This document shows, piece after piece, positions 15,450-63,744 of a stretch of DNA of 64,000 nucleotides. The DNA is from a virus. The DNA lies in IMG/VR virus record IMGVR_UViG_3300045125_000140, positions 1 through 64,000 of that record. One strand, given 5' to 3'. The first letter of the stretch is position 1. Every line of letters starts with the position of its first letter. The position numbers were made by a program, and so were the translations under genes. The notes below the pieces were generated by a model. The model searched no databases and was not told the DNA's origin. It worked only from the letters and a program-made list of their open reading frames with translations.

Positions 15450-16924
15450 TTGCCGCCCTCCTGTTGGAGGACCTCAAGGAACTGGTCGATCAGTTTCTGT
15501 TTTTTGCCGGCCAGGCCGTGCATGTATTCGTCGGTGGATGTGTGCGGCTTATCACCCATCATGCGTTGAAATAGCGTAGGCGGGGTGGTCGAATGGTAAT
15601 GGCGAACATCGACATGACGCTCATCCGGAGGAAGATGCTCGTGGCTCTTATAACGGATCGCGCGGCCGATGACCTGCTTGATGCGGCTCTTGTTCCAGTG
15701 CGGCTCGACTACCTGAACCATTCTGGTGCCCTTTAGGTCTAGGCCTTCGGAGCCGGCGCCGGAAACTAGAAGAGCCTTTATCTTATCGGCGTTGTAGTCT
15801 TCGACGATCTTCTTCTTTTGCCGATCCGAAAGCTCTCCTGTGAACATCGCCGCCGGAACACCTGCCTTGGTTAAGGCCGAGTGCAGCGGCTGGATCCCGT
15901 CACGGATAAAGTTGGAGTAGATCACGCCCTTGAATCGGGGGTTCTTTTCCAGCCCGGAACCAAAATCAGAAAGAATCTTCTGGAACTTGGGCGAGTGATG
16001 GAGTGCATCCTCTTCCGTCATGTACGTCTGGTAACTGTGCGGCGTGTTCGACACCGCTCGAGGAGCGCTCAGGAAGGCGGCGAGGTTTGCCGACTCTTTC
16101 TTTGACGGAGGGAGGTTGCGTTCTACTTTTCGGAGAAGTCCGCTCGGTATTCCACGGGCAACGTAATCGTATACCTGCTTCTGAACCGGGCTCATCTGAA
16201 CCTTGATGGTCTTTTCCGACGAGGACGGGAATCCGTCTTTTATCGACGGATGGTAGTCGACGTATTTACGTACGGCGCGCGCAAATTGAGCCTTGTTCTT
16301 TATAGCCGGCTCGACTCCAGGCTGAACTCCGAAAAGATACTTCTCGATGAGCCCGGGGCTTACTTCCTTCTCCTCAACAAACTCTTTTTCGAATTCTCCG
16401 CCGGTAGGAAGGACCTTCTTACCTGCGGCGATGTTGAGTAGTGGGGCTAGCTCGCTCGGATAGTTTTGAATCGGCGTGCCGGTAAGTAGGATTCTGCGGG
16501 CGGACGGAGACGCCTGCTCCAAGGCGGCGCGAGTGCGCATCGACGTCGGATCTTGCAAGCGGTGCGCTTCGTCGAAGATAAGGACTTTGTCCCTGCTCGA
16601 CGGCGACTTCGTAAATCCTTCGTAGCTCTTAAGATCGAAGGGTACTTTGGGCTTGACCTTGGCTATCTCTTTGAGGTAGTTGGGTCTAAGCGATGCCGGA
16701 ACAACTGCCTCAGCAGGAAGTCCTAGCTTATCGGCAGCCGAAATTGATGTGATCGTTTTACCGGAACCGAGTCCGTGGTAAACGAGAAGGCCAGGAGTTT
16801 CGAGAAGCTTTTGAAGCACGCGCTTTTGATGCGGCTTGAGCTCTATCTTCTCCTCTCCCTTATTCTTATCGGGATCGGGAGCTTTCTTGGCGATCTTCTC
16901 GAATGAAGAGGCGAGGCGTCTCAT
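15446..16924 (-). CDS. SF2/SNF2-type DNA helicase-ATPase
   Basis: A 492-residue superfamily 2 ATPase. Motifs in order: Walker A GLGSGKT at residues 51-57, DEAH box (LIFDEAHRLQD) at 118-121, motif III-like LLTGTP at 146-151, then in the second RecA domain SGAGSEGLDLKG and QVIGRAIRYKSH (motif VI with its arginines). The HW..SRIKQVIGRAIRYKSH form resembles SNF2-like helicases of large viruses. It would translocate on double-stranded DNA using ATP. Its place among fibre genes is odd for a replication enzyme. Its N-terminus, RRLASSFEKIAKKA, resembles a short form of the tag seen on many proteins at 33-61 kb, so it may be packaged in the virion. The ATG start is at 16924. Confidence 0.85.
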   Translation of the reverse strand: MRRLASSFEKIAKKAPDPDKNKGEEKIELKPHQKRVLQKLLETPGLLVYHGLGSGKTITSISAADKLGLPAEAVVPASLRPNYLKEIAKVKPKVPFDLKSYEGFTKSPSSRDKVLIFDEAHRLQDPTSMRTRAALEQASPSARRILLTGTPIQNYPSELAPLLNIAAGKKVLPTGGEFEKEFVEEKEVSPGLIEKYLFGVQPGVEPAIKNKAQFARAVRKYVDYHPSIKDGFPSSSEKTIKVQMSPVQKQVYDYVARGIPSGLLRKVERNLPPSKKESANLAAFLSAPRAVSNTPHSYQTYMTEEDALHHSPKFQKILSDFGSGLEKNPRFKGVIYSNFIRDGIQPLHSALTKAGVPAAMFTGELSDRQKKKIVEDYNADKIKALLVSGAGSEGLDLKGTRMVQVVEPHWNKSRIKQVIGRAIRYKSHEHLPPDERHVDVRHYHSTTPPTLFQRMMGDKPHTSTDEYMHGLAGKKQKLIDQFLEVLQQEGGK

Positions 16925-38656: not shown

Positions 38657-40759
38657 ATGGCTACCGAAGAACCGCGCGGCACGGGAAATACCCAGGTCAA
38701 CTTACCTCCAGGCTTTAGTTCAGCGACACAGGCGCCAAGCAGCTCTATTCCTGGGGTGCCGGGCAGCGGCGGCCAAGCCGCTATTAGCACCGACACGTCC
38801 CGAAGCGCCACTCTCCAGGAGATCGACGAAAAAGTTCGTCAAATGATTACGGAGCGTGCGGAGAAGTTAGACGTAGAGCTGCGGCTCAAAGAGTACGATC
38901 GGGCACGCCTAAATAACGAAAGCAAGTTCTGGGATCTTTTTGTAGCCGAGCCGGTAAATCAGGCGATAGAGGAATTTGCTGACGAGTTCGGAGAAGACGA
39001 CGAGTCTATAAGCAACGCCGCCACTAAAACAAAGGCAAAGCTGTCGAGCCTTTTAGATGTGGAATCGACTTGGGAAAACTTCGATACGAAATACGGAAAG
39101 CTGAAAAGCTCCGACGACTTTACCAACCTCGAGAAGTTATTCAGCAATCCGGAAACAGAGAACTATATAATCGAGCAGTATGTAAGTCCATATGCTCGAA
39201 GCGCTCTGGATAAGGACAAGTGCGAAAATACGGTAGTCGGCGCGTCGATCGGGGTGGTATCTAAAACTTTAGCGGGCGCAGTCCGAAATCAGGTTCGAGG
39301 CGTATACGCGCTAAATGCGTCCTTGGCTCTGCTTATTAACCAGGTGGAGGGTCTGGGGTCGGCGTTCATGCAGATGCCGGTTCAAAACCTTATATCAATT
39401 CTGGTGTCTCGGGACCTTATAATCGACCGGATAATAAAAGTTTCGGAAGCAATTGCGTCTATTTCCAGAGATATGTCGGACAGGGATTATCCGTTCGACC
39501 ACCCATACTGGCTCCGCGAGGAGCAGCGCCGACTTAAAAACGCCGAGGACAAGCTTTCCAGAGTTCAGGCGATTTTGGAGGGCGGCGGTAAGTTTAATAC
39601 CGGTTTATGGACCAGCGCCAAGCGGGACATCGATGAAGCGGCCGACGCGCTGTGCGGCACGAATATCGATCAGCTGCTCAGCGGCCTCAGCCTTCGGCCC
39701 ATCGCGCTAGCCGGTCTGTCCGCATACCTGCAATCGTTGGTGTCGGTGCTTCAGCGTCAGCAACAGATTCGCAACCTTCTTATAAATTCAATCGTGTCGT
39801 TCAACAGCCGGTTCTTCCAGCTGACGCGATTCGACAATCTCTTCGTTCCGATTGTGCAGGCTATTCGGTGCCGCCTTACGAAGATAAACGATCAGATAGA
39901 CGTGGCGATTAAAAAGAACCAGTTCTTCTACTACCTGATAAAGGAGAAGGAGTGGTGCTTATACCTTAAAGCGCTTTCGGCCCTCATGTCCGCGAGCGTC
40001 AAGTTTAATCTACCCGAAAACGTTAATAAGTTCCTGGGCACGGAGATTCTTCAAAACGCAGCCAACAGCGTCGTAAGCACGTTGAACGAGGCTGCCGTCG
40101 AAAGCATCGACGCCTCTGCCCGAACACTCATCCGCCTGTGCAACGAGTTAATTCTGGTCGCCAAGAAGAAGGCGACGTACAACATCAGCCCGAACTATTT
40201 AACCAGCCTCGCCACCTCGATTAAGGTGGAGGGTGAGCGGCTGAAGTCAGTAGACGATCCAGTTAGTAAGGTTCTGAATATATTCAGCGGCCTTATTCCA
40301 ACGCAGGCGTTCGAGGCGGTTCTTATCGTAAACCAGCTGATGAGCTTTGCGAAGGACCGAAACCTGGATAAGTTCGTTGACGCTATTCAGGCCGGTAATC
40401 TCGACGACGCGTTTGGCGTCAGTGGCCTGATTGCCACTATTGATCAAACAGTTACTTTCGGAATATCAAACTACATAGCCGGAAACATTGCCGGAGGTGG
40501 CCTATTCGGTGAGCCGCTGCGCGAGGCTATTGCCGTTAGAAATTTATCTGTGTCAAGAGCACGGGCACAGGCGGCAAAACAGCGGGTACGCAATTACTCA
40601 GATCAGGGAATAACCGAGGCATTTGATCAGGTTCAAAAGCTGAAGGACGCCAGACGGTCTATGGGCGTTGTTCTGCAAAACGAGGACGTAAGCACGCCCC
40701 CACAAACTATCTCACCTAAGCTCATCGACGCTCAAATAATCCCGCATATTGCGGCATAA
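38657..40759 (+). CDS. Helical protein of unknown function, 700 aa
   Basis: Starts at ATG 38657 (MATEEPRGTGNTQVNLPPGF) with no clear ribosome binding site, possibly on a short leader from the weak promoter at 38619. After a disordered 55-residue N-terminus the protein is almost entirely alpha-helical with long heptad-like stretches (EIDEKVRQMITERAEKLDVE, NAEDKLSRVQAILEGGGKF, RSATLQ...). Hydrophobic helices near the C-terminus include FGISNYIAGNIAGGGLFGEP. It is a single-gene unit transcribed away from the tagged cluster. A structural role (for example tape-like or scaffold-like) is possible but not shown. Confidence 0.65.
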   Translation: MATEEPRGTGNTQVNLPPGFSSATQAPSSSIPGVPGSGGQAAISTDTSRSATLQEIDEKVRQMITERAEKLDVELRLKEYDRARLNNESKFWDLFVAEPVNQAIEEFADEFGEDDESISNAATKTKAKLSSLLDVESTWENFDTKYGKLKSSDDFTNLEKLFSNPETENYIIEQYVSPYARSALDKDKCENTVVGASIGVVSKTLAGAVRNQVRGVYALNASLALLINQVEGLGSAFMQMPVQNLISILVSRDLIIDRIIKVSEAIASISRDMSDRDYPFDHPYWLREEQRRLKNAEDKLSRVQAILEGGGKFNTGLWTSAKRDIDEAADALCGTNIDQLLSGLSLRPIALAGLSAYLQSLVSVLQRQQQIRNLLINSIVSFNSRFFQLTRFDNLFVPIVQAIRCRLTKINDQIDVAIKKNQFFYYLIKEKEWCLYLKALSALMSASVKFNLPENVNKFLGTEILQNAANSVVSTLNEAAVESIDASARTLIRLCNELILVAKKKATYNISPNYLTSLATSIKVEGERLKSVDDPVSKVLNIFSGLIPTQAFEAVLIVNQLMSFAKDRNLDKFVDAIQAGNLDDAFGVSGLIATIDQTVTFGISNYIAGNIAGGGLFGEPLREAIAVRNLSVSRARAQAAKQRVRNYSDQGITEAFDQVQKLKDARRSMGVVLQNEDVSTPPQTISPKLIDAQIIPHIAA

Positions 40760-40768
40760 GAATAATAG
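40733..40768 (+). promoter_or_regulatory. Two-part phage promoter (copy 1)
   Basis: CAAATA at 40733, exactly 14 bases, then GGCATAAGAATAATAG at 40753. It overlaps the end of the 38657 gene and drives the 40855 gene. The RNA start is inferred to be near 40767, where the 5' stem-loop begins. Confidence 0.75.
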
Positions 40769-40843
40769 TGGCTGCTTTTGGCGTCAGAGCCACTCTGTCC
40801 GGGCAGACTCCCGGTGAAGTCTTTCTGGCCTAGCTAGCCAGAA
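40768..40843 (+). promoter_or_regulatory. Structured mRNA leader with three hairpins
   Basis: Directly after the promoter are GTGGCT / AGCCAC (40768-40793), CCGGG / CCCGG (40799-40814) and TTCTGGC / GCCAGAA (40823-40843). The last stem ends one base before the GGGAGG ribosome binding site of ATG 40855. 5'-end stem-loops protect mRNAs from decay in known bacterial and phage systems; that role is inferred here. Confidence 0.6.
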
Positions 40844-40854
40844 GGGAGGCTGCG

Positions 40855-41570
40855 ATGGGATTCCGCATCGTAGTCAGTGTTGTGGAGGAGGGCCTCGTGC
40901 ACGAGGGTCGAGTGATCGACCCCGCCACGGGGCCGGTGGTGTTAGACCCGAAGCGCGGTGTTCGGGTCTTGGTCGCAGCGCGCCCAGGTAACAAGCCGGG
41001 GCAGACGCTGCTTCAACTCCTTGTTCGCGTGGGCGCGGACAAGGAGTACGTCGTTCCAGCCCACATTCCGGGAGAGTACGCGCTGCTTCCGGAATTCGGT
41101 CACAGGGTAAAACATGCGACCGAGGTTAAGGATCCGTTGGAGCGGGTCCTCCGCGAGGAGGGGATTCCCCTTGCGGCCGCGTCCTTCTACCACGACCCCA
41201 CGGTTGCGGTAGAAGTCGAGATCGCCACGGAGACGTCCGCGGCGGTTAAGCCCTGGAATTTCACCAAGGCGCAGACGGCTGTCCTGAATAAGGGCGGCCG
41301 TGTGTCTTTCGGGCCGTGGACCGAGCTCGGGCCCGGGCTCGGTCGGGCCCGGAAGGCAACATTCACCCCCTCCTCCAAGGGGGTGGTGATCATCCTCAGC
41401 GACGTTCGGGTGGGCCGCCACCCCGGCGTCGCCGAGCGCAGGATCGAAAGATCCTTATCGGCAGGGGCGTGACGCCTGCCGAACTCAAGGCCGCGCTCGC
41501 GGCCGCGAAGCAGGAGCGCCTGGACGTGATCCAGGCTTCTTCTGTGTCCGCGGCTGCGGCACAGGCCTGA
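40855..41570 (+). CDS. Hypothetical protein, about 238 aa (frame-shifted near the end)
   Basis: ATG 40855 has GGGAGG 5 bases upstream. The protein is beta-rich (FRIVVSVVEEGLVHEGRVID, LLQLLVRVGADKEYVVPAH). In the printed frame it stops at 41472 after an unnatural tail (ERRIERSLSAGA). Adding one C at 41421-41424 continues it as AQDRKILIGRGVTPAELKAA and AKQERLDVIQASSVSAAAAQ to a TGA at 41570, 4 bases before the terminator, where a gene end is expected. No family was recognised. It is the first of four independently transcribed small genes, so it is probably made in quantity. Confidence 0.6.
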
Positions 41571-41573
41571 AAA

Positions 41574-41626
41574 AGGGTGGGGTACAGGGGGCAGTGCGGC
41601 CCCTGTACCCAACCCACCCTATTTTT
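41574..41626 (+). terminator. Rho-independent terminator
   Basis: A long GC-rich stem, AGGGTGGGGTACAGGGG against CCCCTGTACCCAACCCACCCT with a small bulge, followed by ATTTTT. It lies right after the stop of the 40855 gene. Confidence 0.85.
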
Positions 41627-41790
41627 AACCCAATTACACCCAATTAGGCCAAAAATAGCCATTTTTGTCATATTTTGGCTATATAGGCGGTTTTTAGGCC
41701 AAAATAGGCTATTTTAGCCCAAAATAGCCCAAAATGCCCTATTTTGGCCTAAAATGGCCTATTTAGCCCCTATAGGGCCAAAAACAGGGG
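41627..41790. repeat. Cluster of AAAATAGCC / GGCTATTTT short inverted repeats
   Basis: About 160 gene-free bases are filled with degenerate 9- to 10-base units, AAAATAGCC, CCAAAATAGG, GGCTATTTT and CTATTTTGGC, about ten in both orientations (for example CCAAAATAGGCTATTTTAGC and CCCTATTTTGGCCTAAAATG). The region is far more A+T-rich than its surroundings. Such iterated, palindromic, AT-rich DNA is typical of replication origins, partition or packaging sites, or protein-binding arrays. Which applies cannot be told from the sequence. Confidence 0.65.
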
Positions 41791-41814
41791 TATTTTATGG
41801 CACAAGAATAATAG
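41779..41814 (+). promoter_or_regulatory. Two-part phage promoter (copy 2)
   Basis: CAAAAA at 41779, 14 bases, then GGCACAAGAATAATAG at 41799. It starts the folded RNA at 41814 and lies at the edge of the AAAATAGCC repeat cluster. Confidence 0.7.
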
Positions 41815-42190
41815 AGGACATATTAGGTTGCAAACTAATGTGTTCTCAAACCCCGGGCATCGGACTAACTCACCGATGCTCTCAAGGGGTGCCCCCAAGG
41901 GCTGGCTCGACGAAGGAGCAGCCGCCGTATTAGGAACCGGCGAGGGGCAAGGTTGACACCAGACCTGATAAGGTGTCCCTCTACAACCAAAATGGTGAAT
42001 CTGCGAATCGAGTCGGCAGATTCTTAATTGTAGAGGCGGTAAGTCGCGGGAAGGTCCCGCCCATGGTATGGCTATACCCGCTCACCCTAGCGAAAAGGGG
42101 GGATGTGGCAAGTCCCTTAAACTTGTGCTCCGCATTCTACGGGCAGATTCATTGTGGGTCTGCCCGTGGAGTTCGGTTCAAACAACATGT
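41814..42190 (+). ncRNA. Large, highly structured RNA of unknown class (about 375 nt)
   Basis: No convincing ORF covers this stretch, but it is packed with complementary segments: 41814-41826 with 41835-41847 (13-bp 5' stem); ACCCC/GGGGT enclosing GCATCGG/CCGATGC; GGCT..GCTC/GAGC..AGCC; CGCCG/CGGCG; GACACC/GGTGTC; CTCTACAA/TTGTAGAG enclosing ACC/GGT and AATCTGC/GCAGATT; GCGGGA/TCCCGC; GGTAT/ATACC; CAAGT/ACTTG; GGGCAGA/TCTGCCC. It begins at a phage promoter and ends just before the ribosome binding site of the 42209 gene. It could be a free-standing ornate RNA or a long regulatory leader. I do not recognise its class. Confidence 0.65.
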
Positions 42191-42208
42191 GAGCTGAAAG
42201 GAGTTTAG

Positions 42209-42457
42209 ATGAGGTTTGATTTTGAAAAAGAGTTAGTGTTCGACAAGACCGGCAAAGAGATAGGTTATTTGGAACCCACGTACAACGCCATGAACTGGCG
42301 TGTACTTTTATACGCGGAAAGCGGGCCTCCCATTCACTGGGGAGTAGCCTTTCCGACACCATGACCTCCGACACCTTGGATACGACGTCTCGTACGTTGT
42401 ATTCGAGGTGTCGAGAGACCAGGCGAAAGCTTGGAACATCGTCAAAGCGGGGGTTAG
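42209..42457 (+). CDS. Small hypothetical protein, about 83 aa (frame-shifted)
   Basis: ATG 42209 has AAAGGAG 5 bases upstream and reads MRFDFEKELVFDKTGKEIGY, then YNAMNWRVLLYAESGPPIHW. The frame stops at 42364, but a +1 shift near 42360 continues naturally as HDLRHLGYDVSYVVFEVSRD and KAWNIVKAG into the terminator at 42444, where genes of this cluster place their stop codons. Mixed alpha/beta small protein, no family recognised. It follows the folded RNA, which may control it. Confidence 0.5.
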
Positions 42458-42473
42458 ACCCCCGCTTTCTTTT
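42444..42473 (+). terminator. Rho-independent terminator
   Basis: Perfect stem AAAGCGGGGG / CCCCCGCTTT with a 5-base loop (TTAGA), followed by CTTTTA. It ends the transcript started at 41779. Confidence 0.85.
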
Positions 42474-42477
42474 ACTC

Positions 42478-42513
42478 CAAATAATATTGAAAACTGCGTC
42501 ATAAGAATAATAG
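42478..42513 (+). promoter_or_regulatory. Two-part phage promoter (copy 3)
   Basis: CAAATA at 42478, 14 bases, then GTCATAAGAATAATAG at 42498. It lies immediately after the terminator of the previous unit and drives the 42601 gene. Confidence 0.75.
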
Positions 42514-42587
42514 AGAGAGTATTACCGGAGGTAGGGAAACTCTCTCCTAAACCTAGAGATCAGGAGGGTTCCTGATCCGTGGTTTAG
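42513..42587 (+). promoter_or_regulatory. Structured leader with conserved TCAGGAGGGTTCCTGA hairpin
   Basis: A 5' stem GAGAGAGT / ACTCTCTC (42513-42546) is followed by a nested hairpin: CTAAACC / GGTTTAG (42547-42587) around GATCAGGA / TCCTGATC (42558-42577). The AGGAGG-like sequence sits inside the inner stem and loop. The identical 16-mer recurs in the leader at 43164. It suggests translational control, though here the ATG is 35 bases downstream. Confidence 0.6.
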
Positions 42588-42600
42588 TTCCTGTTCGACG

Positions 42601-43029
42601 ATGAATGAAAGAGGAAAACTTTCTTCGTTCGCTCAAAAAATGAGCGAACTCCTCGAGCTGCCGCACAGGCAGCTCGAGGATCTCCGAGAGGCTTCAAAGA
42701 AGTTTGAAGCCGTTCTCCTTTGGGAGGACGACGCGGACGACGAATGGGCGGACTTTGTGTCCGTCAGAGGTTGGATCGAGGTGGCGTATTTACGCCTGCT
42801 CGAGAGCAACCGAGTCCGCCCTGACTGGGATTCGGCGCTCGACGCACTCAAGTGCGTCGATGACGCGCTGGGGACCTTCACCTCGAGGGTGAAGGACCCC
42901 AAAGGCCGCAAGGAGGTCAATGACCTCCTCGAGGCCACCTGGGAGGTCCAGGCCGGCCTCAAGCCGGCTATCGATCGGCTCAGGCTCCGCCAACGGGTGG
43001 AGACTGAAGCACCCACCCTCAACGACTGA
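42601..43029 (+). CDS. Hypothetical helical protein, 142 aa
   Basis: Starts MNERGKLSSFAQKMSELLEL and is helical throughout (PHRQLEDLREASKKFEAVLL, DALKCVDDALGTFTSRVKDP, LKPAIDRLRLRQRVETEAP). It is acidic overall and has no recognised motif. No conventional ribosome binding site lies close to ATG 42601; the nearest AGGAGG is in the leader hairpin, so initiation may depend on RNA folding. The stop codon lies in the loop of a CCCTC/GAGGG hairpin just before the terminator. Confidence 0.6.
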   Translation: MNERGKLSSFAQKMSELLELPHRQLEDLREASKKFEAVLLWEDDADDEWADFVSVRGWIEVAYLRLLESNRVRPDWDSALDALKCVDDALGTFTSRVKDPKGRKEVNDLLEATWEVQAGLKPAIDRLRLRQRVETEAPTLND

Positions 43030-43035
43030 GGGTGG

Positions 43036-43076
43036 GAAGGCGGGGTTGGTCATGTGCCGGCCCCGCCTTCTTTTTT
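43036..43076 (+). terminator. Rho-independent terminator
   Basis: Stem GAAGGCGGGG / CCCCGCCTTC followed by TTTTTT. It is preceded by a second hairpin, CCCACCCTC / GAGGGTGGG, that spans the stop codon of the 42601 gene. Confidence 0.9.
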
Positions 43077-43080
43077 ACCT

Positions 43081-43116
43081 CAAATACTTCCACATATTGC
43101 GGCATAAGAATAATAG
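43081..43116 (+). promoter_or_regulatory. Two-part phage promoter (copy 4)
   Basis: CAAATA at 43081, 14 bases, then GGCATAAGAATAATAG at 43101. Together with copy 1 it is the best match to the consensus. It drives the small membrane-protein gene at 43182. Confidence 0.75.
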
Positions 43117-43190
43117 AGAGGACATTACTTGGAAAGGTAAGAAGTCCTCTCCCCGACCAGGCGTCAGGAGGGTTCCTGAATATGGTTGGG
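43116..43190 (+). promoter_or_regulatory. Structured leader that can hide the ribosome binding site and start codon
   Basis: 5' stem GAGAGGAC / GTCCTCTC (43116-43151), then TCAGGA / TCCTGA (43164-43179) nested in CCCGACC / GGTTGGG (43152-43190). In the folded form AGGAGG is in the inner hairpin and the G of ATG 43182 is in the outer stem, so opening the structure should be needed for translation. The inner hairpin is identical to that of the 42513 leader. Confidence 0.6.
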
Positions 43191-43463
43191 TTCTGGCAGG
43201 TTATGACGAACAGCAACAACAACTTGCCGCCGGCTCAACCGGCGGCTGCGGCGAAAGCTGCCGCCACGCCCAAGTGGGCGGTGGCGGCGGTGCTCGCCGC
43301 CATCACCCTCTCGGTGGTGGCGGCGGTGGTGGCCGCCTCGGCGAAGGCCGAGGCGCAGGCCAAGACGATCGTGTCCATCAAGGACACATCGTCTTGGTAC
43401 CAATCGTCGGTGTGGGTTGCGACCCACGCCGACGGCTCAACGTCCACCCTCACGACTAAGTGA
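43182..43463 (+). CDS. Small single-pass membrane protein, 93 aa
   Basis: ATG 43182 lies 10 bases after AGGAGG; a second in-frame ATG is at 43203. After a Gln/Ala/Pro-rich N-terminus (LPPAQPAAAAKAAATPK) comes one hydrophobic helix of about 21 residues (WAVAAVLAAITLSVVAAVVA), then a short polar tail (KTIVSIKDTSSWYQSSVWVA). Type I or II topology cannot be fixed. A holin-like, superinfection-exclusion or host-membrane role is possible. Its own promoter, hairpin leader and terminators suggest strong, controlled expression. Confidence 0.6.
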   Translation: MVGFWQVMTNSNNNLPPAQPAAAAKAAATPKWAVAAVLAAITLSVVAAVVAASAKAEAQAKTIVSIKDTSSWYQSSVWVATHADGSTSTLTTK

Positions 43464-43499
43464 GGGTCGCGCCCCTCTCAGCTCGGAGCTGGGAGGGGC

Positions 43500-43534
43500 A
43501 AAACGCGGAGATGGATTGTCCCGCGTTTCTTTTA
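43500..43534 (+). terminator. Rho-independent terminator
   Basis: Stem AAACGCGG / CCGCGTTT with a 12-base loop and a CTTTTA tail, preceded by a second strong hairpin, GCCCCTCTCAGCTC with GCTGGGAGGGGC. Confidence 0.75.
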
Positions 43535-43542
43535 CTCCGGAT

Positions 43543-43570
43543 AGCCGCTTGGGTTAAGGCGGCTTTTTTT
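43543..43570 (+). terminator. Second rho-independent terminator in tandem
   Basis: Stem AGCCGC / GGCGGCT region followed by seven T. Two terminators in a row insulate the 43182 unit from the MoxR-VWA operon. Confidence 0.75.
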
Positions 43571-43586
43571 CACTATCATCATTGCT

Positions 43587-43621
43587 CAAATTTTATAGCA
43601 AATGATGGCATAAGAACTATG
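43587..43621 (+). promoter_or_regulatory. Two-part phage promoter (copy 5)
   Basis: CAAATT at 43587, 14 bases, then GGCATAAGAACTATGT at 43607. The downstream box is less perfect and no 5' stem-loop follows. It drives the MoxR-VWA operon. Confidence 0.65.
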
Positions 43622-43644
43622 TGCGCTTTTTAATTGGAGGTAGC

Positions 43645-44751
43645 ATGACGTTTCTCAATAAAGTTACGAATTCGTTGTCCGGCTTCTATCAGCCGGAGAA
43701 GTTCGCGAAGGTGCTGTCCCTCGCTCTCGCGAGCGGGCGGCATCTGGTCGTCTACGGACCTGCCGGTCACGGCAAGTCCGAGATGACACAAACAGCCCTC
43801 AAGGGGCTGGACCCCTTCGTGCTCTCGTTCGGCGAGGGCATGACCGAGGACAAAATCTACGGCGGCATAGACTTTGCCGCCATGAACCGCGCGGACTCGC
43901 CGGTTCTTCAGTTCAACGCGCAACACTCCTTCCTCGCGCACAGCATCGCTGTGTTCGAGGAGTTGTTCGACGCGCCGTCGAACGTCCTCCTGTCGCTGAA
44001 GGACACCCTCGCGGCGAAGGCTCTGCGCGCCGGCCACCAGCAGGTGGCGTCGAAGGTGAAGACCATCGTGGCTCTCACCAACAAGAGCCCGAGCGAGATG
44101 TCGGAGCTCGGTCCGTCGGTGCAGGCGCTGACCGAGCGCTTCCCGCTGCAGTACGAGATGCGGTGGGCAAATTACGACTCCAACGCGTACCGGCAAATGC
44201 TGGCCGCGGAAAAGTCGTGGGCAGAGGCGGGCATCGTCGAGTCCGACCTCGACGAGGTGCGGGAAAATTGCGGCCGCGTCGAAATCGGTGAGGACATGAT
44301 GGACGCGTACGCCACCGTGCTCGGCACCGCGGCCGACTCGGGTCGCCTGGTGTCGCCGCGCATCGCGCGGGCTGGCCTTGACGTGATCAAGGCATCGGCG
44401 GCGATTAACGCCCGCAGCTACGTTGAGGTGGAGGACCTCGCCGAGGTCACCTATCTCGGGATCGATGTCGGCGATTACGTCGACACGATCGAGCGGCGGA
44501 AGAGGACTCGGGAGGCCAGAGAGTCCCTCTCGGCTCTCGAGGAGCAGCTGACCGCGCTCAAGGGAGCGCTGGCGAGCGCATCCACGCCGATCCCGGCTCT
44601 TCAGGTCGGGAAGGCGGCAAAGGAGATCGCGAACCGCGCCAAGGCACTCGCGGTCACCGACGATCTCGTCAGGGCGCGAGAGAACATCGAGGCTGGGGCG
44701 AACGTCGTCGCAAAGGCCGCCGTCGAGCTGGCCACGAGCCTCACTCGATGA
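43645..44751 (+). CDS. MoxR-type AAA+ ATPase
   Basis: I chose ATG 43645 (MTFLNKVTNSLSGFYQPEKF), which has GGAGG 7 bases upstream. The 368-residue protein has Walker A GPAGHGKS at residues 38-45, a Walker B-like VFEELFDAPS, sensor-1 TNKSP and an arginine-finger-like ERFPL, as in MoxR/RavA ATPases. The C-terminal 100 residues are a coiled helical region (ALEEQLTALKGALASASTP). MoxR ATPases act as chaperones that remodel protein complexes, usually with a VWA partner, and such a partner is encoded directly downstream with an ATGA overlap. Finding the pair in a phage is unusual. Confidence 0.8.
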   Translation: MTFLNKVTNSLSGFYQPEKFAKVLSLALASGRHLVVYGPAGHGKSEMTQTALKGLDPFVLSFGEGMTEDKIYGGIDFAAMNRADSPVLQFNAQHSFLAHSIAVFEELFDAPSNVLLSLKDTLAAKALRAGHQQVASKVKTIVALTNKSPSEMSELGPSVQALTERFPLQYEMRWANYDSNAYRQMLAAEKSWAEAGIVESDLDEVRENCGRVEIGEDMMDAYATVLGTAADSGRLVSPRIARAGLDVIKASAAINARSYVEVEDLAEVTYLGIDVGDYVDTIERRKRTREARESLSALEEQLTALKGALASASTPIPALQVGKAAKEIANRAKALAVTDDLVRARENIEAGANVVAKAAVELATSLTR

Positions 44752-45952
44752 GGTTTTTCAGGAGTCCGGCGAACTATATCATGCCGTCGGACTACGAGCT
44801 CTCTGAGGGGCTCAAAAGAATCGGCTGACCGCAGAGCGTGATTTCTTTCACGACCTGATCGCGCGGTCAGCCGGAGGCGAGGTGGACACGAGCGTCGAGG
44901 CGGAGAACTACTCCGCGCGAGACTTCGTGAACTCCTTCGACCTGGAATCCGTTCCAGGCGATACGCCTATGAGGCGAGCTCTCTCGCTAATGAAGGCGTT
45001 GGAGCTGGTGGCCAAAGAGGCGCCGCCGGAGGTGGGCTCCAAGACCGCCCGCAAGGGATTTGCCCGCGCACTAAGCAGTGACGCGGTCACAAATGAGGGA
45101 GGCAAATTCACTTTCGCCTCCCCTGAAAAAACCGCGAGGCTGCTCAAAAAGCGGTTCGAGGCGGTAAAAGAGATGTCCGACGAGGAGCAGACAATTCTCG
45201 GCACCGACCCTGTCTCGATTATCAAGACGGGGTTGAAGGCCGGGGACTTCCTGAGGATCTCCAGGAAGCTCAAGCGATACGACAATTTCGCTCTCCGTCC
45301 CACTAACAAGGTGAAGGCCGACGTTAACGGGACGGACACGCGGATGCGTCCTATCAAGGACTTCTCGGAGATCGGCCGCGCGACGTCTGACTTCTGGGGC
45401 CTACCCAAGAGGCTCCAAAACTTCCGCATGGTGACCAACCAGGTCATGGTGCGGGAGAAGGTCAAGAAGGAGGATAAGAAGCAGCTGCTTTATATCCTCG
45501 TTGACGTCTCGGGGTCGATGAAGGACGGCGACCGCCGGGCAAAGGCGGTCGCGGTCGTTCTAAACCGACTCACGTCGGTTGTCCGGGGCGAAGCCGTCCT
45601 CATCGTGAGGACGTTCTCAAACCGCCTTCTCGATAGGTGGGAGGTTGAGGATGCGACCGACGCGAAGACCGTCATGAGTCGGATCGTAAATCACCCCTTC
45701 TCGGAGGGGTCGACCGCGATCGGAAATTGCACCGCCAGTGCGGTGCATGAGATCGAGCAAATGTCCGAAAGCGGGAGGTTTGAAGGAACCAAGCCCGACC
45801 TGGCCGTCGTTACTGATGGTCAGGATACGGTGGACATGCAGCTAGAGGAGCTCCACGGGATCAAGTTGCACGCATTCGTGTGCGACGGTGTGAACGAGGG
45901 GCTTACTCAGCTGGCGGTCAAGTCCGGCGGTTGCGGAGTCGGCAGCTTCTAG
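44748..45952 (+). CDS. VWA-domain protein, partner of the MoxR ATPase (frame-shifted)
   Basis: ATG 44748 overlaps the MoxR stop. The frame MRFFRSPANYIMPSDYELSE stops early, but one extra A at 44814-44817 gives KNRLTAERDFFHDLIARSAG and joins the long ORF whose nominal start is 44882. The repaired protein has about 400 residues. The C-terminal VWA domain carries the full metal site: DVSGSMK near residue 250, EGSTAIG with the threonine, and VTDGQD with the aspartate, as in CoxE/ViaA-type proteins. The N-terminal half is helical. It would bind clients or ligands and couple to the ATPase. Confidence 0.8.
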
Positions 45953-45985
45953 GAAGAGGGGGCGCTTCATGCGCCCCTTCTTTTT
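45953..45985. terminator. Rho-independent terminator
   Basis: Stem GAAGAGGGGGCGC / GCGCCCCTTC with a 5-base loop and TTTTT, right after the VWA gene stop. It faces the 3' end of the minus-strand gene at 45984, so it may serve both directions. Confidence 0.8.
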
Positions 45986-46175
45986 ACTGCTCGTTATTTT
46001 TCGCTATAACGGCAGCTGTCGCGTCTTCCCACGACCAACCATCATTTGCCGCCTTGAGTCGCTTTATTTCCGCGATCTCTTCGGTGGTCAAAAACTTAGG
46101 AATAGGAACGTGATCGGGAATCCCTGACCGCAGAGATTCCCGTCTTCCTATCTGTCGTGCTCGTTCTTCGTTCAT
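45984..46175 (-). CDS. Small hypothetical protein, 63 aa
   Basis: Starts MNEERARQIGRRESLRSGIP with an ATGA overlap on the upstream gene. It has a helical C-terminus (FLTTEEIAEIKRLKAANDGW, then SWEDATAAVIAKNNE). Charged and soluble. It is the last gene of a three-gene minus operon with 46172 and 46419. Confidence 0.55.
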   Translation of the reverse strand: MNEERARQIGRRESLRSGIPDHVPIPKFLTTEEIAEIKRLKAANDGWSWEDATAAVIAKNNEQ

Positions 46176-54308: not shown

Positions 54309-54608
54309 CTACTCTCCCGGGCCGGATAATTTCTGCATTAACTTAGAACTGAACTTCTCCACAACTCTTAATCCGAGATGTCCGGTCAGGAAGGCGACCG
54401 CATACGTAAGAGATTGCGAAGTTATGTGCGCCAGTTCGACAATAAGTGGAGTGAGGTAATTGGCCGCCACTGCTCCCCCAAAAAGAGCGAGTAGCGTCTC
54501 TCTCCACGTAATAGCCGACGTCCTGCTGATCGAGAGGATTGCGCCTGCAAGACCTGCGAGGAATAGGGCTACATTTATTCCCATGTCTTTGAAGTTAGAA
54601 TCGTTCAT
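54309..54608 (-). CDS. Putative holin-like membrane protein, 99 aa
   Basis: Starts MNDSNFKDMGINVALFLAGL. It has three predicted membrane helices (INVALFLAGLAGAILSISR, LLALFGGAVAANYLTPLIVE, SLTYAVAFLTGHLGLRVVEK) and a short charged C-terminus. Length, helix number and a charged tail match phage holins, which open the inner membrane at lysis. The assignment is by topology only. Confidence 0.5.
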   Translation of the reverse strand: MNDSNFKDMGINVALFLAGLAGAILSISRTSAITWRETLLALFGGAVAANYLTPLIVELAHITSQSLTYAVAFLTGHLGLRVVEKFSSKLMQKLSGPGE

Positions 54609-54614
54609 ATAACC

Positions 54615-54938
54615 CTATTCAGAGGCCAGATTCAAAATGAAAGATCGAACAAACAAGCTGTCGGTAAGTCCGGCCTCTTTTTGAACGCCGTCTTCCGACT
54701 GCTTGTTTGTATTGGGGGTCGACTCTTTCGCCTTCGGGGCCTCGGGTTTTTTAGTAACTGGTTTTTTAGAGGCGAGTCTGCTAAGTACATACGCCGCAAG
54801 CATGCCGGCGTAAAGTGGCCTTGTTATAGACTCAGATTTAATCTTGCCTTTGGAGAAGGACTGGGTCAGCGTTCCCGCTACCCCAGCCCCGGTTACTCCG
54901 GAGGACAAAGATTTGATGTGGTCAAATATAGAGGCCAC
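54615..54938 (-). CDS. Hypothetical protein with C-terminal tag-like end, 107 aa
   Basis: Starts MASIFDHIKSLSSGVTGAGV. One possible membrane helix (LYAGMLAAYVLSRLASKK) is followed by a Lys/Pro/Thr linker (KKPEAPKAKESTPNTNKQSE). The C-terminus SLFVRSFILNLASE looks like the loose tag, here at the end of the protein. That placement suggests the motif may work at either terminus. Confidence 0.5.
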   Translation of the reverse strand: MASIFDHIKSLSSGVTGAGVAGTLTQSFSKGKIKSESITRPLYAGMLAAYVLSRLASKKPVTKKPEAPKAKESTPNTNKQSEDGVQKEAGLTDSLFVRSFILNLASE

Positions 54939-54974
54939 TGATACCGTCGATTAGTCTGCTAGATAGTTACGGTA

Positions 54975-55547
54975 TCAGTACTTCGGACCGAGCTTCCAAC
55001 CTTCAGCTTTATCCGTTGCAGCTGGAGGCATAGCGTTGGGGCCTACCTTCTCGGTGTAGCCGCCTTCATTTAGGATCTTGGGAAGAACTTTAAGCGCTGA
55101 TCCTTGAGTGTACTGGGGCTCGTGATGAGGCGAGTAGTCTTCTATCCCGTACGGATCCAACTCATGGATGGAGAGTGGGGCTTTAGAAGCGCCGCCGCCG
55201 AATAATCCCTTAATCTTCTCTAAGATTGAGGACCCCTTCAACTTCTCCATGATTGAATCACCGAGTCCGAAGTGATGGGCAGCGCCTAAGGCGCCGGCAC
55301 CGAGGGCGCCTCCGAGAAGCATCTTCTTTCTGTTTGCGCTCTGACTTGCCGCAGCCGCCGCAAGGGCGGCTTGTCTGGCCTGATCGTCCTTATGGCCCTG
55401 ATACATTTTGTAACCGCCATAACCGAGACCGCCTACAGCTAGGAGCTTAAGCAGATTGGCCATGTTTGCGGAGCCTTTAGCTGGGGCTGCCTGATCCTCA
55501 GCAATCTTAACAAACTCGCGCATAAAAGTACGTTCAAACGAATTCAT
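54975..55547 (-). CDS. Tagged glycine-rich protein, 190 aa
   Basis: Starts MNSFERTFMREFVKIAEDQA (tag variant). A hydrophobic helix (LLKLLAVGGLGYGGYKMYQG), an Ala-rich segment and a second glycine zipper (KKMLLGGALGAGALGAAHHF) are followed by a polar C-terminus with Y, P and H (DPYGIEDYSPHHEPQYTQGS). The ribosome binding site GGAGACACC precedes ATG 55547. Probably a membrane-associated virion or early protein; function unknown. Confidence 0.6.
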   Translation of the reverse strand: MNSFERTFMREFVKIAEDQAAPAKGSANMANLLKLLAVGGLGYGGYKMYQGHKDDQARQAALAAAAASQSANRKKMLLGGALGAGALGAAHHFGLGDSIMEKLKGSSILEKIKGLFGGGASKAPLSIHELDPYGIEDYSPHHEPQYTQGSALKVLPKILNEGGYTEKVGPNAMPPAATDKAEGWKLGPKY

Positions 55548-61218: not shown

Positions 61219-61254
61219 CAAAAATATGCCGAATATGCGGCATAAGAAGATTAG
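61219..61254 (+). promoter_or_regulatory. Two-part phage promoter (copy 6)
   Basis: CAAAAA at 61219, 14 bases, then GGCATAAGAAGATTAG at 61239. The spacer and box form an inverted repeat, ATGCCG...CGGCAT. A 5' hairpin, GCAGT / ACTGC (61256-61270), follows and then GGGGAGG before ATG 61284. Confidence 0.7.
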
Positions 61255-61283
61255 AGCAGTAATTTACTGCTGAAAGGGGAGGT

Positions 61284-61595
61284 ATGAAGATCCTACTCGT
61301 TTACCAAGACGGGATCGAGAAGGTTAACTCGGCCCGCGTCTTTTTTATGGAGCCTTTTGGCCGCGAGGTCGAGGCTCCTAAAAAACGAGAGATGCGGGAG
61401 TACTCGGAAATGCTGCCGGACATCAAGTCGGCGGCGATGATCCAGTACGGCCGCGACCTTAAAACCAGCAAGGTGTGCTGGTCTCGCAAATTCAAGTGCT
61501 TGCTCTTGAAGGAGCACCGTGGATTTGATATCTTCATCGAGTTGCCCGGTTTCCGGGCGTGGCACGATCGGTGCCTCGATTCGATGGACACCTGA
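61284..61595 (+). CDS. Small hypothetical protein, 103 aa
   Basis: ATG 61284 has GGGGAGG 3 bases upstream. A mixed alpha/beta protein (MKILLVYQDGIEKVNSARVF, LPDIKSAAMIQYGRDLKTSK, HRGFDIFIELPGFRAWHDRC). No family recognised. It is transcribed from its own promoter together with the tRNA-Lys gene 6 bases downstream. Confidence 0.6.
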   Translation: MKILLVYQDGIEKVNSARVFFMEPFGREVEAPKKREMREYSEMLPDIKSAAMIQYGRDLKTSKVCWSRKFKCLLLKEHRGFDIFIELPGFRAWHDRCLDSMDT

Positions 61596-61601
61596 AAAAG
61601 G

Positions 61602-61674
61602 AACTCCGTAGCTCAGTTGGTAGAGCAGCAGACTTTTAATCTGTTGGTCCTGGGTTCAACTCCCAGCGGAGTCA
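61602..61674 (+). tRNA. tRNA-Lys (anticodon TTT)
   Basis: A full cloverleaf in 73 bases: D arm GCTC..GAGC, antic stem GCAGA/TCTGT with loop CTTTTAA, T arm CTGGG TTCAACT CCCAG, acceptor 3' strand CGGAGTC plus A73. The first acceptor pair is A-C instead of a Watson-Crick pair. CCA is not encoded. It follows the 61284 gene and is probably processed from the same transcript. Confidence 0.9.
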
Positions 61675-61676
61675 TA

Positions 61677-61743
61677 GGGCGGCATTAAGCTTCTGGATTT
61701 TAGATCGTTTCTAAAGTCCTAATACCCTTGGTTGATGCCGCCC
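61677..61743 (+). other. Inverted repeat after tRNA-Lys
   Basis: GGGCGGCAT and ATGCCGCCC form a perfect 9-bp stem closing a 49-base loop, which holds a second imperfect hairpin (GGATTTTAGA with TCTAAAGTCC). The size is close to that of a tRNA but no T arm or anticodon arm fits. It may be an RNA-processing structure or a decayed tRNA. Confidence 0.4.
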
Positions 61744-62001
61744 GTCAATATGGAACAGCAACAACCTCAAATAGTGCCCGCGCAAGCGTGGTACTTTATT
61801 CGAAACACCGTAGGAGTCGGCGCTACCTTAATAGGTCAGGCGTCGATGTTCGCCAATAATCAATCCATCAAGCAGATGGAGTCCGTGCTTCCTGGACTTA
61901 AGGAAGTAGTGATGAAGCTCGAGCAGCTTCTTAAATTCGCCAAGGAGGCGGATGAGCCGCAAGCTCAACAACCTCCCAGTGATACTGGGACGAAACCATA
62001 G
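61735..62001 (+). CDS. Small hypothetical protein, 88 aa
   Basis: Starts MPPVNMEQQQPQIVPAQAWY; ATG 61735 lies inside the inverted repeat, and ATG 61750 is an alternative, neither with a clear ribosome binding site. It has a hydrophobic middle (FIRNTVGVGATLIGQASMFA), then a helix (SIKQMESVLPGLKEVVMKLE) and a Gln/Pro-rich end. Function unknown. Confidence 0.5.
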   Translation: MPPVNMEQQQPQIVPAQAWYFIRNTVGVGATLIGQASMFANNQSIKQMESVLPGLKEVVMKLEQLLKFAKEADEPQAQQPPSDTGTKP

Positions 62002-62278
62002 TATTCCGTACTATGGGTTATTTCACTCAAGCTGTGTCGAGGGGAAGGACACAGAGTGGGAAAGAGCATTATCTAAGATGCTCCTAGATCAGGACGTCCA
62101 GATCGAGATAAATCCTGATCTACCGCTCGAGCCGGCGTTACTGGCTCTTTTCATCCCCGTCCGTGTGGCATGGGCTACCCACAAAAAACTGTGGATCCTG
62201 TGTCATAAGAAGAATAGTGGGAGAATTATTACCTTCGCTACGAAGGCTATAAGCGTCCCCACCATGTATCAGGTATAG
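61952..62278 (+). CDS. Possible small protein overlapping the sigma-factor promoter, 108 aa
   Basis: ATG 61952 has GGAGG 3 bases upstream and reads MSRKLNNLPVILGRNHSIPY and DTEWERALSKMLLDQDVQIE. It overlaps the preceding gene by 50 bases and runs through the promoter and leader at 62182-62280, so its last 30 residues are doubtful. Either it ends earlier after an unseen indel or it is not a gene. Confidence 0.35.
   Translation: MSRKLNNLPVILGRNHSIPYYGLFHSSCVEGKDTEWERALSKMLLDQDVQIEINPDLPLEPALLALFIPVRVAWATHKKLWILCHKKNSGRIITFATKAISVPTMYQV
62182..62216 (+). promoter_or_regulatory. Two-part phage promoter (copy 7), before the sigma gene
   Basis: CAAAAA at 62182, 14 bases, then GTCATAAGAAGAATAG at 62202. 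A 5' stem GTGGG / CCCAC (62217-62262), enclosing CCTTCG / CGAAGG, follows. Because the sigma factor gene lies directly downstream, positive autoregulation is possible. Confidence 0.65.
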
Positions 62279-62285
62279 GAGGTAT

Positions 62286-62873
62286 ATGCCTGAATTGTTT
62301 AGTAAGAGGAGAGCGGAGCTGCAAAAAGAGCTCATGCTCAAAGTAAAGAATTCTGCGCCGGATGCGCAGGAAGCCGCGGCGCAGCTCTACATGGAGCTGA
62401 AGCGAGCGGTGGCCGGAAAAGCACTGTCCGTCAGTCGAAGGCTGACGCCGGTGCTGGACGACCTCATCCAAGAGGTATTTCTGCGGATGTTGGACCGCAG
62501 CAAGTTGTACGACCCTAAGTACAACGTGAACTCTTGGGTGATGAGAATCACCCGGAACATCTGCATCGATAAGATGCGGTATGAAAAGGTCCGGGAGACC
62601 GAGGTGCTCCAGGACAAACCGTCCGCAATCGTCGAGGCCTCGAATCAAATCGAAGCCGACGAACAACGAGCTCTAATCGAACTCGGACTGAAAAAGCTTC
62701 CGGAGACCCAGCAGCTGGTTCTTCGGAAGTATTACTTGGAAGGGGATAATCTTGAGGAGATTATCTCGAGCACCAAATTCAAGAAGGGGACCATAACCTG
62801 CGCCATGTCGCGCGGGATTAAGGCTCTCCGAGAGAACCCGAATATCGGGAAGCTAGCGCCAGAGGTTGACTAG
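62286..62873 (+). CDS. ECF-like sigma-70 family factor, 195 aa
   Basis: ATG 62286 has AGGAGG 3 bases upstream. Residues 55-100 match sigma region 2: LDDLIQEVFLRMLDRSKLYD, then NVNSWVMRITRNICIDKMRY (the W-x-x-x-I-x-R-N-x-x-x-D-x-x-R signature of -10 recognition). Residues 130-185 match region 4: ELGLKKLPETQQLVLRKYYL, then NLEEIISSTKFKKGTITCAM and SRGIKALRE, the -35-binding helix-turn-helix. Length and two-domain layout are those of ECF sigma factors. It probably redirects host RNA polymerase to phage promoters; the seven two-part promoters in this window are the obvious targets. Confidence 0.85.
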   Translation: MPELFSKRRAELQKELMLKVKNSAPDAQEAAAQLYMELKRAVAGKALSVSRRLTPVLDDLIQEVFLRMLDRSKLYDPKYNVNSWVMRITRNICIDKMRYEKVRETEVLQDKPSAIVEASNQIEADEQRALIELGLKKLPETQQLVLRKYYLEGDNLEEIISSTKFKKGTITCAMSRGIKALRENPNIGKLAPEVD

Positions 62874-62927
62874 CGTTGGGCGCGTTTGGACGACCGCAAT
62901 CCGTCCGAATGCGCCCTGAACCGATCC

Positions 62928-63000
62928 GCTTTCGTAGCCCAACGGCAGAGGCAGGAGACTTAAAATCTCCCAAGTGTGGGTTCGAGTCCCACCGAAAGCA
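62928..63000 (+). tRNA. tRNA-Leu (anticodon TAA) with short variable loop
   Basis: Acceptor GCTTTCG / CGAAAGC plus A73, anticodon stem GGAGA/TCTCC with loop CTTAAAA (anticodon TAA), T arm GTGGG TTCGAGT CCCAC. Total 73 bases with a 5-base variable loop, whereas ordinary tRNA-Leu has a long variable arm; short forms occur in phages. CCA not encoded. Its last 26 bases plus the next T are repeated at 63718-63744. Confidence 0.85.
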
Positions 63001-63053
63001 TGGGCCGCACGATATACGTACGGCTTTTTTATCAAAGGAGTGAGACACTATTT

Positions 63054-63683
63054 ATGAAGTCTATTATCCATATCGAAAAGATCGAAGCTGAAGGTGTTGT
63101 GTTCCACAACATCAAAATCGAAATCGACAACATCAAGGCCCACCTCCCGGGACCGTGTCGTCCGAACCGGACTTCCACGTACCCGGGAGGTGGGCCTGCC
63201 GCAGAACCGGCCGCACCTCGCGACCGTCGAACGCTGAAAACGGCGTTGGCGGGTACGGGGCTCACCACTAAGCAGCTCGCCGATCTCTTCGGCGTATCTG
63301 TCTGGTCGATTCGGGCGTGGTGCTTGGGAGACAACCGCCCCAAGGACGAGAAGATCGCGAAAATCGCGCAACTTCTCGACATGACGCCGAAGGAGGTCTC
63401 GCGACTTCTTCCTCGACGTCGCCCGTCGCGTACTGCGGCGAAGCGCGTCATGCGAACCCGCAAGTCTCTCGGATACGCCATCGCGGCGTACCCGGATGGC
63501 CGGTTCGTGGCGAACGACGGCCACACGGCCGTGACGTTCACGGTTCGGAAGATGGGCCAGCGTACCGTTCTCGACCAAATCGAGACCGGTAAGGACAGCC
63601 CGCTTGGGAAGAAGATCGCGCGCGACGGCAAGATCAGCGGCTTCGGCCGCGTCTGCCAAGCGGCGCGACTGAACACTCTGTGA
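63054..63683 (+). CDS. HTH DNA-binding protein, 209 aa
   Basis: ATG 63054 with AAAGGAG 13 bases upstream. Residues 61-118 form an XRE-like helix-turn-helix domain (LTTKQLADLFGVSVWSIRAW, then KIAKIAQLLDMTPKEVSRLL) followed by a basic stretch (PRRRPSRTAAKRVMRTRK). The C-terminus is an unknown alpha/beta region (YAIAAYPDGRFVANDGHTAV). The N-terminal 57 residues are separate (SIIHIEKIEAEGVVFHNIKI). It sits alone between tRNA-Leu and a repeat of that tRNA's 3' end, as a cargo gene of an inserted cassette would. Likely a transcription regulator. Confidence 0.7.
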   Translation: MKSIIHIEKIEAEGVVFHNIKIEIDNIKAHLPGPCRPNRTSTYPGGGPAAEPAAPRDRRTLKTALAGTGLTTKQLADLFGVSVWSIRAWCLGDNRPKDEKIAKIAQLLDMTPKEVSRLLPRRRPSRTAAKRVMRTRKSLGYAIAAYPDGRFVANDGHTAVTFTVRKMGQRTVLDQIETGKDSPLGKKIARDGKISGFGRVCQAARLNTL

Positions 63684-63717: not shown

Positions 63718-63744
63718 TGTGGGTTCGAGTCCCACCGAAAGCAT
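63718..63744 (+). repeat. Copy of the tRNA-Leu 3' end (attachment-site-like)
   Basis: These 27 bases are identical to 62975-63001, the T arm, acceptor 3' strand and discriminator of tRNA-Leu plus one base. The rest of a tRNA is absent. Two direct copies 743 bases apart flank the HTH gene, the pattern left when an element inserts at a tRNA 3' end. Confidence 0.75.

Follow-up and report, generated by a model that had tools for sequence, protein, structure and literature searches.

A probable long 5′ leader among the hairpin-rich transcripts of one promoter class in a tailed phage

The region 41814-42208 is probably the 5′ leader of a phage mRNA of about 660 nt, which would be one of at least seven hairpin-rich transcripts that start at promoters of a single class, form a hairpin from the first base and may serve a protective or regulatory mechanism. 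It lies on the plus strand of the analysed window, which covers positions 1-64,000 of a virus record of 155,302 bp from a tailed phage. The evidence is read from the sequence, and comprises the set of promoters, the predicted hairpins, the marks of selection at the RNA level, the terminators and the genes for a polymerase and a sigma factor. A preliminary description of this locus had singled out one ornate RNA; what it missed is that a whole promoter-defined set of transcripts is built hairpin-rich. Dense hairpins are not by themselves proof of a non-coding RNA.

The dense pairing reported in that description is real. The MFE of 41814-42190 is -167.3 kcal/mol compared with a mean of -128 for shuffled sequences (z = -6.3; 0 of 100 shuffles as low), and a separate genome-wide run over 377-nt windows with 16 shuffles gave z = -9.0. 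About ten helices are predicted with a pairing probability of at least 0.85. The first is the 5′-terminal hairpin P1 (41814-41847), a 13-bp stem (41814-41826/41835-41847) with the arms GAGGACATATTAG/CTAATGTGTTCTC, of which two pairs are G-U; its first base is the +1 nucleotide and its pairing probability is 1.00. At a randomly chosen position, a stem at least this long has a probability of 0.0009. This is followed by the hairpin P2/P3 (41850-41890), where ACCCC/GGGGU encloses a nested GGGCAUCGG/CCGAUGCUC stem (p = 0.95-0.99). The body of the leader (41892-42177) contains about eight further helices, including 41978-42036 and an 18-bp stem formed by 42134-42151 and 42155-42172 (pairing probability 0.97), while the predicted topology of 41892-41977 is uncertain. 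No Rfam family matches 41814-42190 at either the gathering or a relaxed threshold, the relaxed matches falling far below the gathering scores.

The leader begins at a promoter that is repeated in this genome, coinciding with the phage promoter and 13-bp stem that had been noted at the 5′ end. Promoter B (41788-41813, plus strand; GGGTATTTTATGGCACAAGAATAATA) has a PWM score of about 35, where shuffled sequences reach maxima of 9-18, and the +1 nucleotide is the G at 41814, immediately after ACAAGAATAATA. The common motif is GGCATAAGAATAATA followed by the +1 G, with the fuller form CCGCATATTGCGGCATAAGAATAATA. Within the 155-kb genome the PWM finds seven strong sites of 34-42 bits (40742, 41788, 42487, 43090, 61228, 62191 and 80166) and two weaker ones (98162 and 154757), all nine on the plus strand. 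No sigma-70 hexamers are present at the class promoters in the 40.6-46.1 kb stretch that was scanned. Every one of the seven strong sites is followed by a 5′-terminal stem at +1, each of different sequence. The +1 positions come from the alignment, and a shift of one base was allowed; behind 62191 and 80166 the stem is short and, taken alone, not significant. Unit B has both marks of the class, the GGCATAAGAATAATA motif and a stem, here of 13 bp, starting at +1. Three unrelated viral contigs carry the exact promoter pattern and have no 5′ hairpin; these look like chance matches and were set aside. Just upstream of promoter B is an AT-rich intergenic array (41640-41790) of palindromic GGCCAAAATAG / CTATTTTGGCC units, which could be operator or replication-protein sites.

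The 3′ boundary that had been proposed, at 42190, does not hold. The terminator scan found no terminator there, and an RBS hairpin, a gene and a terminator come next. The RBS hairpin (42178-42219, plus strand; -15.5 kcal/mol) holds the SD core GAAAGG in its loop and the AUG in its stem. The small gene (42209-42364, plus strand) encodes 51 aa as read and has some codon signal, which shifts by one frame near 42355 and continues to about 42443. The gene is thus apparently frame-broken as read, suggesting an indel, a sequencing error or a frameshift, and a 20-bp hairpin (42369-42413) lies beyond the break. The first good terminator is at 42444-42475 (plus strand), with an 11-bp stem followed by CTTTTAC. 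Because the predicted transcript continues through the RBS hairpin and the small gene to this terminator, 41814-42190 appears to be mainly a 5′ leader, of 395 nt in a unit of 662 nt. With a promoter upstream, no terminator before the gene and an RBS directly downstream, unit B has the organization of an mRNA with a long 5′ leader, and a long cis-acting leader before a small gene, which the preliminary description had offered as its alternative, fits better than an ornate RNA.

The pairing of the start codon within the RBS hairpin raises a special case of this leader, in which it would sense a ligand or protein in the manner of a riboswitch and control the small gene via that hairpin. An alternative 6-bp pairing between 42080-42085 and 42189-42194 would break the RBS hairpin. 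Yet this pairing is short and unfavourable, costing 7.1 kcal/mol, there is no known aptamer among the Rfam matches, and the searches found no homologues from which a conserved core might be seen. We therefore regard riboswitch-like control as decidedly unlikely.

Unit B is flanked by transcripts of the same construction, all on the plus strand. Unit A (40742-41612) comprises a promoter, the 5′ hairpin GTGGCT/AGCCAC, a gene from 40855 onward with a frame break near 41440, and a 3′ hairpin at 41580-41610. Unit C (42487-43074) has a promoter, the 5′ hairpin GAGAGAGT/ACTCTCTC, an SD hairpin, a gene at 42601-43029 and a terminator at 43034-43072, and unit D (43090-43564) has a promoter, the 5′ hairpin GAGAGGAC/GTCCTCTC, an SD hairpin, a gene at 43182-43463 and a terminator at 43543-43564. 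Thus units A to D each have a class promoter, a hairpin from +1 and a 3′ hairpin that closes the unit, the last seen by eye in unit A and called by the terminator scan in the other three. The predicted transcripts are 40768-41612 (A), 41814-42475 (B), 42513-43074 (C) and 43116-43564 (D). Unit E (43596-45990) follows a weak variant of the promoter, and its hairpin-rich coding sequence specifies a MoxR-type ATPase (43648-44751) and a VWA protein (44882-45952). The occurrence of this pair of genes (43648-45952) in a phage is an observation in its own right; no relatives were found in phage or viral collections.

The leaders of units C and D are paralogous, and share the SD-holding hairpin TCAGGAGGGTTCCTGA. 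Of 21 base pairs, five have undergone double compensatory change, one has changed on one side and none is broken; one of the changed pairs is retained as G-U. The order of P1 followed by P2/P3 in leader B is also seen in leaders C and D. Leader B is four to six times as long as those of units A, C and D.

Could leader B be what is left of a protein gene? All the other units are both coding and hairpin-rich, and the genes of units A and B appear to be frame-broken, so the leader might once have been a structured coding region of the kind seen in A, C and D and have since lost its frame. The earlier judgement that it contains no convincing ORF is borne out, however. The ORFs within 41814-42208 have no codon signal and score like false frames, at the 1st-10th percentile of real-gene segments, and the stems are intact, whereas decay would erode them. 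A decayed gene is thus extremely unlikely, and was rejected on the codon scores. The apparent frame breaks at 41430-41450 in the unit A gene and 42340-42365 in that of unit B both fall in hairpin-rich sequence, and could be sequencing errors, indels or programmed frameshifts.

A free-standing structured RNA that ends or is processed near 42175-42208 and acts in trans has more in its favour; the small gene would then be a passenger or be translated on its own. Leader B is non-coding, very stable and much longer than its neighbours, and a related phage has an apparently non-coding structured stretch of about 500 nt (z = -6.5) behind a promoter of the same type. Against this, there is no terminator at the proposed end, immediately downstream are a canonical RBS and a gene that shows some codon signal, and the RBS hairpin links the leader to the gene. 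There is neither an Rfam family nor a detected homologue, and since the adjacent mRNAs are just as heavily folded, folding by itself is no sign of a non-coding RNA. Strong stems number about 8 per kb in 41814-42190, about 18 in units C and D and about 1 in the rest of the genome. The preliminary description was thus correct that stem density far exceeds that of other DNA in this genome, but the adjacent transcripts, their coding parts among them, are as dense or denser. On this evidence we think a trans-acting RNA unlikely.

The more specific proposal, of a discrete RNA of about 375 nt resembling GOLLD or ROOL, fares no better. GOLLD RNA is found near tRNA islands and is often over 800 nt (PMC12286853); ROOL RNA, too, is expected beside tRNA islands. 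Leader B is likewise phage-encoded, large and densely paired. However, it is shorter, has no defined 3′ end of its own, leads into a gene and shares its hairpin richness with neighbouring mRNAs, and the nearest tRNA is at 61602, 19 kb away. No Rfam covariance model for GOLLD, ROOL, OLE RNA or any known riboswitch or leader class matches it.

The mRNA leader lies within a hairpin-rich zone. Among the 377-nt windows at 41145-43407 are some with z = -9 to -13, and perfect hairpin stems take up 0.15-0.20 of the bases in the kilobases at 41-43 kb, compared with 0.025 on average over the genome and a maximum of about 0.05 in shuffles. Hairpin coverage changes from 0.000 upstream of the first promoter to 0.154 downstream. 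A second such zone (61228-63683, plus strand) has promoters at 61228 and 62191, with a 5′ hairpin behind both, and contains genes for a sigma-70 family factor (62286-62873) and an HTH_3 protein (63054-63683). Genes of the first zone exceed synonymous-codon shuffles in hairpins by z = 2.8-5.5, and those of the second (62-66 kb, behind promoters 61228 and 62191) by z = 3.4-5.8; for most genes outside both zones z is 0-2. Hairpin richness thus appears usually to extend through the coding region of the class transcripts, and exceeds the needs of the proteins and of codon usage. The strongest of the folding windows sampled outside the two zones (98200) is directly behind promoter 98162, and covers a 53-aa ORF and a terminator-like hairpin.

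Such perfect palindromes might instead be selected as DNA, for protein binding, cruciforms, recombination or single-strand functions, with RNA folding a by-product. Both strands fold well, with many perfect stems, and the MoxR-VWA genes hold G-U pairs and A-C mismatches in balance, at 4:6, with no G-U excess. In the long stems of units A-D, however, the ratio of G-U to A-C is 14:4, and in unit B alone it is 7:0. This excess is modest and points to selection on the plus-strand RNA, as does the changed pair kept as G-U between leaders C and D. The minus strand of 41814-42190 has z = -4.8, weaker than the -6.3 of the plus strand, and the plus strand has the better z throughout unit B up to 42200. 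The edge of the zone is the first promoter and the stems start at +1. We consider a DNA-level origin very unlikely.

What might transcribe these units? The phage encodes a 2011-aa protein (G000:144384-150419; L097:1284-7319) with fused beta (Rpb2) and beta′ (Rpb1) domains and the motif NMDFDGD, and the sigma-70 family factor, with regions 2 and 4, is itself behind class promoter 62191. We infer that the fused polymerase, possibly with the sigma factor, acts on the class promoter. The phages AR9 and phiKZ provide a comparison, as promoters have been characterized for their phage-encoded multisubunit RNA polymerases (PMC5312081, PMC9209446). There too the phage has its own multisubunit-type polymerase and promoters that lack sigma-70 hexamers. 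In contrast, the polymerase here is a single fused beta-beta′ chain, the motif is GGCATAAGAATAATA and a sigma-70 family factor is also encoded.

In the proposed mechanism the fused polymerase, possibly with the phage sigma factor, would start at the G after ATAATA. The terminal hairpin would then leave no free single-stranded 5′ end for 5′-end-dependent decay, the internal hairpins would expose few single-stranded stretches to endonucleases, and the RBS hairpin would hold translation of the small protein low or regulated. That the hairpins stabilize the RNA and control translation, and that the extra ~300 nt of leader B have any task of their own, is inferred from this anatomy. Stem-loops at or near the 5′ end stabilize bacterial and phage mRNAs of the ompA and T4 gene 32 types, and the +1 stems are similarly expected to block 5′-end-dependent decay. 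The difference is that in this phage a +1 stem, each time of another sequence, stands behind all the strong promoters of a phage-specific set, and hairpins usually continue through the coding region. Placement of the ribosome site and AUG within a hairpin resembles the operators of the MS2/R17 replicase and T4 gene 43, except that the RBS hairpin of unit B is preceded by a structured leader of ~360 nt and its regulation is putative. RNA viruses have ordered RNA structure on the scale of the genome, and share with these units a pervasive structuring of coding RNA beyond the needs of codons; here it is found in a dsDNA phage, limited to the transcripts of one promoter class.

How far does this extend to other phages? 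The helicase (15446-16924) has 35-45% identity to those of many IMG/VR phages, often of 130-210 kb, and 41% to that of Salmonella phage Arash. Kin were reached solely through this helicase, and ten of their records were read whole; the structured zone is absent in most of the ten. In one (G023) it begins at the promoter AAAGCATAAGAATAACG, followed directly by the 5′ hairpin AGATG..CATCTC, with coverage rising from 0.018 upstream to 0.158 downstream. First behind this promoter is the apparently non-coding RNA of ~500 nt (L189:11190-11695, minus strand; z = -6.5), and after it a 390-aa ORF, more enriched in hairpins than any other in that genome (z = 7.2). Near the 3′ end of the RNA there is a tRNA-like T-arm (GGGTTCGAGTCCC). 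Another relative (G010) has the promoter GGATAAGAATAGTA with the 5′ hairpin GAAGG..CCTTC and a zone that is only mildly structured; further down from the promoter a structured stretch of ~300 nt (L159:16574-16884, minus strand; z = -4.6) precedes a 102-aa ORF. Variants of the promoter occur in G040, G042, G028, G013 and G049, some without 5′ hairpins, and G028, G013 and G040 lack either a structured zone or a 5′ hairpin. The search of kin for the promoter pattern gave 22 true matches and 11 in the reversed control.

A DNA search of phages and plasmids found no homologue of leader B, and covariance models of its two halves (R1 and R2), each run on 50 records that were almost entirely kin, had no match. 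Against the structured RNAs of G023 and G010 the R1 model gave only noise of ~5 bits, and these RNAs are not detectably homologous to leader B. An 11-nt loop (AGUCCCUUAAA) common to leader B and the G023 RNA was discarded as a lead, as 3 of the 50 kin records contain the same 11-mer, which is near the chance level. The proteins of units A, B, C and E found no relative among phages and viral contigs, the sole match, for B, having an E value of 0.8, and the neighbouring 701-aa and VWA genes have no useful homologues in kin.

Structure within the mRNA of phage genes is usually treated as incidental, but here it tracks one promoter class, in a zone that starts at the first promoter. We tentatively suggest that a family of dsDNA phages with its own RNA polymerase may make a promoter-defined set of 'armoured' transcripts. 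Synonymous choice would carry their hairpins on from the first base through the coding sequence, giving general protection against RNA decay or against immune systems that target RNA; leader B, at 395 nt, and the ~500-nt G023 RNA would be the non-coding members. The ingredients are each known separately; a limited literature search found no description of hairpin-rich transcripts defined as a set by their promoter in a dsDNA phage. If confirmed, this would be a strategy for RNA survival or regulation, visible in sequence, in phages with their own polymerase.

Two features close to or outside the zones deserve mention. A strong folding window at 54560-54990 (z = -9; 54600) lies outside both and spans the minus-strand gene 54615-54938 with flanking sequence; none of the class promoters was seen there. 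The 3′ end of a tRNA-Leu, TGTGGGTTCGAGTCCCACCGAAAGCAT, at 62974-63001 recurs at 63718-63744, past the HTH_3 gene, as if an element of ~740 bp had inserted at the tRNA.
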